DNA of 64,000 bases. Source: Deltaproteobacteria bacterium. GTDB lineage: Bacteria > Myxococcota_A > UBA9160 > SMWR01. Below the pieces are notes generated by a model. It was not told the origin of the DNA. It worked only from the letters and a program-made list of their open reading frames with translations, and did not search any database. The position numbers and the translations under genes were made by a program. Location: the NCBI GenBank assembly GCA_002729515.1, contig PBYF01000091.1, positions 1 through 64,000 of the forward strand. The letters are read 5' to 3'. Of the stretch, positions 31,684 through 34,338 are shown in pieces (within the stretch, counting starts at the first letter, position 1; each line of letters begins with the position of its first letter).

Positions 31684-32927
31684 AGCTGTCCCTGCCCACT
31701 TTTGTCGTGTGTCTCTCGCTCATCGCGTCGGCCTGCGCACGAGAGGAGCCGCCGCGCCACGCCGTCGTCATCCTGGTCGACACCCTGCGGGCCGATGCTC
31801 TCGACCACGCCGACACGCCGGTGCTCGACGCCCTGGCCGCACGCGGCGAGCAGGTCGAGCGCGCTTGGAGTTCGGGGACATGGACGGCGCCGAGTCTGGT
31901 GTCCCTCTTTACGGGCATGCACGTTCGCGAGCACGGCTGGGATTTTGGTTTCCGCGGCAGTCGCCGGAATCGCGCCACCGCTTTCCCACTGCTTCCCGAC
32001 GTACCGACTCTCGGGCTGGTATTGCGGCGGGCCGGATTCGAGACGGCGGGAATCTTCGCCAGCCGGGTTCTCGCGTGGGACCTTGGCTTCGAACGCGGCT
32101 TCGCACGCTGGCGGCGAAGCCGCGACCCCCAGATTCCACGGCTCGTCCGCCAGGAAGTCGCAAGCTGGCGACCGGGCGAGCGGCACTTCCTGTACGTGCA
32201 CCTGATGGGACCGCACCAGCCGCTGCGTCCCAGCACCGAGGCCGCCGCGCGTTGGCAGATTGCGGAGGACCTCGAGGCCCATCCCCTCGGTATGTCGTTG
32301 CATTGGGCCCGGAAGCTTTCACCGGCACAATGGATCACGGGCGTCGATCTCTACCGCAAGGCGTACTGGGCCGTGGTCGAGGACACGGACGCGCGTATCG
32401 GCGAGATCCTCGAGGCACTGGGACCGCACCTCGACGACAGTCTCGTCGTCGTGACATCGGATCACGGTGAGATGATGGGCGAGAGATTTCGCTTCGGGCA
32501 CCGGCGCTGGCTCGATGAACCTCTGACGCGGATTCCACTGATCGCTGCCGGTGCCGGCCCCTTGCCCGACAGACTCACCCTGGCTGCGGTTCCGGACCTG
32601 GTGACTCGCGCGCTCGGGGTGGAGCACCCGTGGTCGGTCCGCGTCGATGGGGGCGGGCCCCTGGTCTCGCAGCGCCAGGGTGCCTTGGCGTTGTCTCCCG
32701 AGGGTCGCTTCAAGGCCGTCTGGCACCGCAACGGCAGCCTGGGCGACGTTTACGACCTCGAACGAGAGCCGCTGGAGCCGCAGAACCGCCCCGAGCAGGT
32801 GCCGGATCTCGAGGCCCAGCGTCGGGCATTCCAGGAGCGCGTTCCGGTTGGCATCTCCGAGAAGGGGAAGGTGCGCAGTGGGCCCGAGATCGAAGCTGCA
32901 CTGCGCGAACTGGGCTACGTCGAATAG
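31680..32927 (+). CDS. Second sulfatase-like lipoprotein, Thr nucleophile position
   Basis: 415 residues, overlapping the previous gene by 4 bases. A probable lipobox IASAC places the lipid-bearing Cys at residue 19. The family elements are VVILVDTLRADAL (metal Asp34), GTWTAPSLVSLFTGMHVREHG and TSDHGEMMGERF. The Cys/Ser nucleophile is Thr69 and the motif Arg is Leu. Similarity to the upstream gene suggests a tandem duplication that has diverged. Substrate unknown. No sulfatase-maturase gene is nearby, which fits a Thr enzyme. Confidence 0.8.
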   Translation: MKLSLPTFVVCLSLIASACAREEPPRHAVVILVDTLRADALDHADTPVLDALAARGEQVERAWSSGTWTAPSLVSLFTGMHVREHGWDFGFRGSRRNRATAFPLLPDVPTLGLVLRRAGFETAGIFASRVLAWDLGFERGFARWRRSRDPQIPRLVRQEVASWRPGERHFLYVHLMGPHQPLRPSTEAAARWQIAEDLEAHPLGMSLHWARKLSPAQWITGVDLYRKAYWAVVEDTDARIGEILEALGPHLDDSLVVVTSDHGEMMGERFRFGHRRWLDEPLTRIPLIAAGAGPLPDRLTLAAVPDLVTRALGVEHPWSVRVDGGGPLVSQRQGALALSPEGRFKAVWHRNGSLGDVYDLEREPLEPQNRPEQVPDLEAQRRAFQERVPVGISEKGKVRSGPEIEAALRELGYVE

Positions 32928-32957
32928 GGGCCACCGTGTTTTGGCCGAGCCTCTGGG

Positions 32958-32986
32958 TTGACGAGTTCAGTGGCATCGCCTAGTTA
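32958..32986 (+). promoter_or_regulatory. Probable leuA promoter
   Basis: TTGACG (32958-32963), a 17-base spacer and a weak TAGTTA -10 (32981-32986). Transcription would start about 32993, directly before the leader-peptide ATG at 32994. Confidence 0.5.
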
Positions 32987-32993
32987 TCGAGTG

Positions 32994-33080
32994 ATGGCGA
33001 ATCGGCACTCGATCCTTCGGAGCCTTCTCGACGCCCTGCTGCTTAGCAGGGCGGGAGTGGGTTCCTGCGCCGTTCGCTAG
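32994..33080 (+). CDS. leuL: leu operon leader peptide
   Basis: A 28-codon reading frame, beginning MANRHSILRSLLDALLLSRA and ending CAVR before TAG. Six of 28 residues are Leu (8, 11, 12, 15, 16, 17), with the triple Leu at 33036-33044 in the loop side of a hairpin. This is the classic control-codon arrangement of a leader peptide. It would lie at or within a base or two of the inferred transcript start, so initiation may be nearly leaderless. No recognisable product function beyond ribosome stalling is expected. Confidence 0.75.
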   Translation: MANRHSILRSLLDALLLSRAGVGSCAVR

Positions 33081-33124
33081 TCGACTCCGCAACCCTCTCC
33101 CGCCGCGTCTGGCCGGAGGGGGTT
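33033..33124 (+). promoter_or_regulatory. Leucine transcription attenuator
   Basis: Four segments are visible. A perfect 8-bp pause hairpin GCCCTGCT/AGCAGGGC (33033-33052) covers the Leu codons. Segment 2, GGCGGGAGTGGGTT (33050-33063), can pair with segment 3, AACCCTCTCCCGCC (33091-33104), at 13 of 14 positions. Segment 3 can instead pair with segment 4, GGCCGGAGGGGGTT (33111-33124), in a 14-bp stem with one mismatch and one G-U pair. The second stem is the terminator, followed by a modest T-rich tract (TTTCGTGTCT). A ribosome stalled at the Leu codons would open the pause hairpin and favour the 2:3 pairing, allowing leuA transcription when leucyl-tRNA is scarce. Confidence 0.78.
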
Positions 33125-33186
33125 TCGTGTCTCTGGGGTTTTTGAGTCCCCCGCTCCCGCGCCGGGCCCGGCATCAGGAGCAAGAC

Positions 33187-34338
33187 ATGTCCGAAAAAGT
33201 CCACGTATTCGATACGACCCTGCGCGACGGGGAGCAGGCCGCCGGCGTCTGCTTCTCCGAGCGCGAAAAGGTGGAGATCGCCACACGCCTCGACGCCCTG
33301 CGCGTCGACGTGATCGAGGCCGGTTTCCCTGCGGCGTCCCGTGCGGAATGGGGGAATGTGGCCGCGGTGGCGCGGGAAGTCCGCCAGGCGGCGGTCTGCG
33401 CTCTGGCGCGAGCGGTTCCGGGCGACGTCGACGCAGCCGGTGCGGCACTTCGGAAAGCCGTTCGCCCGCGCATCCACGTCTTCATCAACGCGAGCGATGT
33501 CCAACTCGCTCAGCAACTGCGCAAGGACCGCGACGAGGTGCTCGGCATGGCCGAGTTCGCCGTGGCGCGGGCCCGCCGCCATACGGACGACGTCGAATTC
33601 AGCCCAATGGACGCGACCCGTGCGGATCCGCAGTTTCTGGCGGAGATCGTTCGGGTGGCGCTGGCTGCCGGCGCGCGGATCATCAATCTTCCGGACACGG
33701 TGGGGTACGCCACACCGGATGCCTGCGCCCGGATGTTTAGCGACGTGCGGAGCGCCGTTCCGGAACTCGATGCAGCGCTGCTCTCGTTTCACGGCCAGGA
33801 CGACCTGGGCATGGCGACGGCCAATGCGCTCGCTGCGATTACTGCGGGCGCCCGCCAGGTGGAGGTTGCCGTGAACGGCATTGGCGAGCGCGCCGGGAAC
33901 ACCGCTTTCGAGGAGGTGGTTATGGCCCTTCGCGTTCACGGTGCAGCGTTGGGCTTGCACACGGACGTGGATCCGGTGGGCATCGCGCCGCTTTCCCGGT
34001 TGGTGGAAGAGTGCAGTGGAATCGCGGTGCCGCCGAACAAGGCCGTGGTGGGAGGCAACGCCTTTCGCCACGCATCCGGTATTCACCAGGACGGTGTGCT
34101 CAAGTTCCGGCAGACCTACGAGGTGATCGATCCCAAATCGATCGGACATGCCCGCGGTACGGAAATCGTACTGGGCAAGCTCTCCGGCCGCGCGGGCTTC
34201 GTCGCCCGGGTACGCGCGTTGGGGATCGACATTCCGGTTGATGGACTCGACCGTGCATTCGGCCGATTTCAGGCCTTGGCAGAGCAGCAGCCGATCGTCG
34301 ACGACACTGATCTCCGCACGATCTTTGCCGCGCTCTAG
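33187..34338 (+). CDS. leuA: 2-isopropylmalate synthase, short form without regulatory domain
   Basis: 383 residues from the ATG at 33187, which has AGGAG six bases upstream. The DRE-TIM barrel starts [17 protein letters not shown] (Arg13, Asp14). [47 protein letters not shown] and [16 protein letters not shown] are LeuA-like rather than homocitrate or citramalate signatures. The C-terminal ~120-residue leucine-binding domain of ordinary LeuA (about 510 residues) is missing. The HxH metal motif reads FHGQDDLG, so the second His (position 204) is Gln. The sequence matches leucine biosynthesis by its attenuator. Loss of allosteric control would leave attenuation as the main regulation. Confidence 0.85.

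Follow-up and report, generated by a model that had tools for sequence, protein, structure and literature searches.

The DNA separating leuA from its upstream neighbor in the 64,000-nt stretch analyzed here (the window, belonging to a 4.4-Mb genome assembly of 149 contigs) raises the question of whether leucine biosynthesis in an uncultivated deltaproteobacterial lineage is controlled by a classic attenuator. A preliminary description of the region had proposed so, pointing to a 28-codon leader with six Leu codons, a hairpin over a Leu triplet and two mutually exclusive stems. The leuA leader is indeed best read, by its anatomy, as a ribosome-mediated transcription attenuator sensing leucyl-tRNA, a reading to which we assign a probability of about 93% from sequence comparison.

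Elements of the leader and alternative foldings

Ahead of leuA, and on its strand, the preceding gene stops at 32927; the leader region lies in the interval from there to leuA. The elements recognized are the following.

32958-32963, + strand: -35 element TTGACG of the leader promoter (sequence; same position in relatives)
32981-32986, + strand: -10 element TAGTTA, weak; TACACA, TAAACA and similar in relatives (alignment with relatives)
32994-33080, + strand: leader ORF of 28 codons, MANRHSILRSLLDALLLSRAGVGSCAVR and stop, ATG at 32994 (sequence, translation)
33032-33053, + strand: 1:2 hairpin spanning the control codons, its 3' arm overlapping segment 2 (fold; relatives)
33036-33044, + strand: control codons CTG CTG CTT, Leu-Leu-Leu (codon bias in relatives)
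33050-33063, + strand: segment 2, GGCGGGAGTGGGTT, left arm of the antiterminator (2:3 pairing)
33091-33104, + strand: segment 3, AACCCTCTCCCGCC, common to both stems (sequence, covariation)
33111-33124, + strand: segment 4, GGCCGGAGGGGGTT, right arm of the terminator (3:4 pairing)
33123-33131, + strand: tail TTTCGTGTC following the terminator stem, U-rich but imperfect (sequence; T-rich in relatives)
33176-33180, + strand: leuA Shine-Dalgarno AGGAG (sequence; equivalent in all 56 genes examined)
33187-34338, + strand: leuA, 383 aa, a short 2-isopropylmalate synthase devoid of the LeuA_dimer domain (NCBIfam, Pfam)

Sequence and translation bear out the leader as first described, its six Leu residues being specified by codons 8, 11, 12, 15, 16 and 17. 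The ATG is found 7 nt past the -10 element and is not preceded by a Shine-Dalgarno. The hairpin over the Leu triplet also holds: the arms GCCCTGCT-gctt-AGCAGGGC occupy residues 33033-33052, extend to 33032-33053 in the computed fold, and have an energy of -18.4 kcal/mol, flanks included. The same is true of the two exclusive stems sharing residues 33091-33104, as segments 2 and 3 pair at 13 of 14 positions, and segments 3 and 4 at 13 of 14, one G-U included, with a single C.C mismatch.

The preliminary description had suggested computing the energies of both folds and looking for covariation in relatives. The antiterminator 2:3 is computed at -29.7 kcal/mol, the terminator 3:4 at -23.5 kcal/mol. 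RNA extending from 33050 to 33106 adopts the 2:3 fold, RNA starting at 33091 or 33093 the 3:4 fold, and the modeled energies (about -30 and -23.5 kcal/mol, respectively) fit the order of events proposed below. The element as a whole folds only modestly better than shuffled sequences (z -2.4), which is what one would expect of a switch. When residues 32928-33186 were shuffled 3000 times with dinucleotides preserved, 15 shuffles gave stems this good and 16 a Leu-rich ORF, and none gave both. When the whole window was tiled on both strands, stems and Leu-rich ORF were found together only in tiles over the leader site.

A scan for consensus promoters and terminators called none at the leader site, because both the -10 element and the U tract are weak; the promoter assignment consequently rests on comparison with relatives. 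An inverted repeat, ATCGAGTG(12 nt)CACTCGAT, is found at 32986-33013, with the leader start codon in its loop. It is absent from the nearest relative (G001), and is thus possibly a chance occurrence.

The predicted course of events, from start site to ribosome stall, termination and leucine response, is as follows. Transcription would start at the leader AUG or a few bases away, and the leader would undergo near-leaderless translation. When leucine is scarce, the ribosome would wait at CTG CTG CTT and melt the 1:2 hairpin, leaving segment 2 free to pair with segment 3 once this is made; formation of 2:3 would block the terminator, and leuA would be transcribed. With ample leucine, the ribosome would reach the stop and cover segment 2, as suggested by the position of the stop, 0-18 nt past this segment in all leaders but one; segments 3 and 4 would then pair, and transcription would end before leuA. 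If the leader is not translated, the 1:2 hairpin would hold part of segment 2, and the terminator would form.

Conservation and covariation in relatives

The nearest named relatives are metagenome-assembled genomes (MAGs) filed under Deltaproteobacteria and Myxococcales (L032, which is G001, L034, L036 and L037); the LeuA of the first is 78% identical to that of the window. A covariance model (R1), built from the leader sequences of 19 relatives (alignment A2), matches 68 of the 80 genomes of the order to which the window belongs, an uncultivated group filed as Deltaproteobacteria/Myxococcales. Some further genomes of that class are matched too; beyond both order and class, matches in the phylum are few and weaker. 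Among the latter, those in G292 and G303 stand before a short LeuA. Low-scoring matches in two genomes of other families of the phylum, G324 (L182) and G255 (L183), were not counted, as the downstream DNA fetched contains no LeuA; small Leu-rich frames may be present in both, followed by a model-like terminator. No convincing R1 match was obtained at Chloroflexota and other LeuA loci (about 50% identity), the best having an E value of 0.007.

All the short-LeuA orthologs of the order with readable upstream DNA feature a Leu-rich leader and/or the three-segment pairing (unreadable are G036, because of a contig end, and G017, because masked). This is the opposite of the loss of both Leu codons and pairing that the preliminary description had named as the outcome speaking against attenuation. 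An uncultured Myxococcales MAG (L035), whose LeuA ortholog is 65% identical, carries upstream of leuA a Leu-rich ORF ending in ALPDLLLPLLRLLGGAAVREGRFAI, with no R1 match; this is perhaps a diverged or a separate attenuator.

Covariation was measured in 63 leaders (alignment A5) against 500 shuffles, a comparison to be read with the caveat that kinship among sequences can by itself beat shuffles. Both stems covary. In the terminator 98.7% of cells are paired and five pairs are changed on both sides, more than in any of the 500 shuffles, at most one of which is as good on any measure. The antiterminator, whose pairing was outside the structure of the R1 model, is paired in 87.2% of cells, with seven pairs changed on both sides, and on none of five measures does a single one of the 500 shuffles equal it; slid versions of the pairing reach 52-63%. 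Many relatives do not keep the outermost three antiterminator pairs (33061-33063 with 33091-33093). Conservation and covariation of both stems lend support to the leucine attenuation proposed at the outset.

The number of Leu residues per leader varies from 4 to 11 (58 leaders), and a stable hairpin over the control codons, in differing registers, is found in 56 of the 58. CTT is the last Leu codon in 51 of 52 leaders, and makes up only 5.8% of the Leu codons in six genes of the window. The spacing between the last Leu codon and segment 2 is constant across relatives.

A TTGAC box, followed after 17 bp by an nA -10 box and, 6-11 nt further on, by the start codon, is present in 50 of 58 leaders; among random ATGs of these loci, with the leader starts themselves counted in, such a geometry is met at 1.6% or less. 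Shine-Dalgarno-like 4-mers stand before all 56 LeuA genes, but before 8 of 58 leader starts, against a background of 13%. With a promoter 6-11 nt before the start codon and no Shine-Dalgarno, the leader mRNA is probably leaderless or nearly so. Transcription usually initiates 6-8 nt past the -10 element, a distance that would leave a 5' untranslated region of about 0-4 nt.

The terminator might merely end transcription of the upstream gene, the Leu-rich ORF being a chance frame. It is true that the upstream gene runs in the same direction and stops at 32927, and that comparable GC-rich sequences often form terminator stems in these genomes, as indicated by partial matches elsewhere to model positions 79-126 (those away from LeuA were taken as ordinary terminators and set aside). 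Promoter, in-frame Leu run and segment 2 are however kept together across the order, stems and Leu-rich ORF never coincided in the shuffles, and the antiterminator, not the terminator alone, covaries; comparison in practice refutes a chance frame, which is hardly credible.

Leucine could alternatively act mainly through the general translation of the leader, or the translation of leuA, rather than through antitermination by a stalled ribosome, an alternative that has been suggested for the leuA leader of Streptomyces. Mutations in the Streptomyces coelicolor leuA leader did not fit classical attenuation (PMC1262725), and the terminator tail at the leader is imperfect. Such control is very unlikely here, given a terminator that covaries, a leuA Shine-Dalgarno (33176-33180) lying outside the switch, and the fixed distance separating the last Leu codon from segment 2.

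In addition to attenuation, the short terminated RNA and the peptide may act in trans, by analogy with rnTrpL and peTrpL of Sinorhizobium. A probably leaderless leader would be freed as a small translatable RNA, as reported for rnTrpL (PMC7298713). The conserved C-terminal residues of the peptide, A-G-E-G, are nevertheless accounted for by the RNA pairing of segment 2, and an additional role in trans seems improbable.

LeuA types behind the leader, and a copy with Trp codons

Genes downstream of the leader were classified by tblastn and HMMs. The gene in the window is matched by NCBIfam LeuA models, and contains the Pfam HMGL-like and HCS_D2 domains only, PF08502 (LeuA_dimer) being missing. 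The best of the NCBIfam matches, NF002086, reaches 514 bits and stays below the cut-off (532), as the protein has no counterpart of the C-terminal domain in this 516-position model. The allosteric domain of LeuA normally gives leucine feedback; since the protein is made up by catalytic and post-catalytic domains without PF08502, such feedback is probably absent. The attenuator may accordingly be the main leucine control of the short LeuA, a division of labor that can be tested.

A second type of gene found behind the leader encodes a type-2 LeuA of about 550 aa (NF002991/TIGR00970), which has the LeuA_dimer domain and is 31-34% identical to the LeuA of the window. Among the 80 genomes, orthologs of the short LeuA (at least 63% identity) are found in 25, type-2 LeuA in 42, both in none. 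The leader is present at the short or type-2 LeuA locus in all of these genomes except G017, where the upstream DNA is N-masked, and G070, where the contig ends 144 nt upstream. At seven type-2 loci only the terminator half matches R1, and in two of these seven (G061 and G028) the Leu-rich ORF was directly seen. Two further leaders (G067 and G073) are located at contig ends. No leader was found in the 11 genomes having neither short nor type-2 LeuA. In this set of genomes the leader tracks LeuA, and not other genes. The match between leader and LeuA over 80 genomes, maintained through a swap of the enzyme, is unusually direct genomic evidence of what the leader senses.

A leader is lacking in front of all eight long type-1 LeuA paralogs that were inspected (about 50% identity). 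A second, full-length LeuA of type 1 resides in the genome of the window itself (L232, G000:C105); no such leader was found before its homologs. The type-1 paralog of this genome (G000) and of G001 seems to be part of an ilvC-psd-pssA-leuA-leuB cluster, gene names being assigned by reading.

R1 also matches a leader before an MFS transporter gene in the genome of the window (G000:C90:11454-11560, minus strand, E 1.8e-7; L142), and in several relatives (L143, L144, L145, L146, L147 and L207). The ORF of this sister copy features Trp codons in place of the Leu run: it reads MSAVQRQLWSVTDSTVLSIWKARVGEGISGR in G000, and contains TAWTVWKWKVGGGAPGR in G037 and LCLSWWKRAAGEEWPD in G051. One ancestral attenuator may have served as a reusable part, LeuA types being exchanged behind it, and a duplicate being retuned from Leu to Trp before the MFS transporter. 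We hold this view tentatively, with the odds slightly against it; the similarity of the sister copy could also be a convergence on a common terminator sequence.

The same RNA was sought before trpE and ilvB, and the idea rejected, no such leader being found in 12 genomes. The trpE genes of six loci (L246, L244, L241, L242, L243 and L240) have in common a TTGAC box, located 150-180 nt before the region matched; a Trp leader peptide was not seen at any of the six.

Comparison with known leaders

The leader seems to be a new family of this lineage, working like a classic leu attenuator and lying outside every Rfam family. No match to Rfam 15 (all families, leu operon leader and T-box included) was found in 32900-33300 at E values up to 1, nor did a search of the window give any at gathering score. 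The literature searched, mostly without subscription papers, holds no account of the leader or of a leu attenuator in the lineage, an absence which is not proof. Beyond what the preliminary description contained are the probably leaderless start, a LeuA that has lost its allosteric domain, the exchange of LeuA types and the sister copy with Trp codons. Classic leucine attenuation would be placed by these data in an uncultivated deltaproteobacterial/myxobacterial order, and the 63 sequences suffice to model a new RNA family. A natural experiment on the origin of attenuators and on their change of specificity may be seen in the Trp-codon sister, together with the probably leaderless start.

The leader of the enterobacterial leu operon (leuL; Rfam Leu_leader, RF00512) shares with the one described here a Leu-rich peptide, a hairpin over control codons, the choice between 2:3 and 3:4 pairing and the location before leuA. 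The RNA sequence is different, however, with no match at the level of sequence or covariance; further distinctions are the presence of a single leuA behind the leader, the probably leaderless start and CTT as control codon.

The trpL attenuator of S. meliloti (rnTrpL) is ribosome-dependent, and its RNA starts at the leader AUG, and is hence leaderless (PMC7298713). The leuA leader resembles it as an attenuator with a leaderless start, here probable. The S. meliloti system differs because it responds to Trp and not Leu, precedes trpE(G) and not leuA, and belongs to an unrelated lineage.

The actinobacterial LEU element similarly has, ahead of leuA, an ORF in which Leu codons form a run, and these codons are paired with the Shine-Dalgarno of leuA in the base stem of a pseudoknot (PMC1262725). 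The preliminary description had cited Actinobacteria among the best known cases of leu attenuators, a loose comparison, as the element is described as a pseudoknot and not as a classical attenuator (PMC1262725). Compared by description, the leader analyzed here is unlike it, featuring a covarying terminator and a free Shine-Dalgarno; its Leu codons pair locally with segment 2, both in the fold and in relatives. A short ORF, MPRQLDLRLLLILPSGS, found 152 nt upstream of the leuA match in a Thermoleophilaceae MAG (L104), is a candidate LEU-element-like leader.

In bacilli, histidine leader peptides are common to hisZ and a hisS paralog (PMC2965389), and here too one leader module stands before two paralogous genes. 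Unlike the histidine case, the genes behind this leader belong to two deeply diverged LeuA types that substitute for one another from genome to genome, and the leader also exists in a further copy with codons for a different amino acid.
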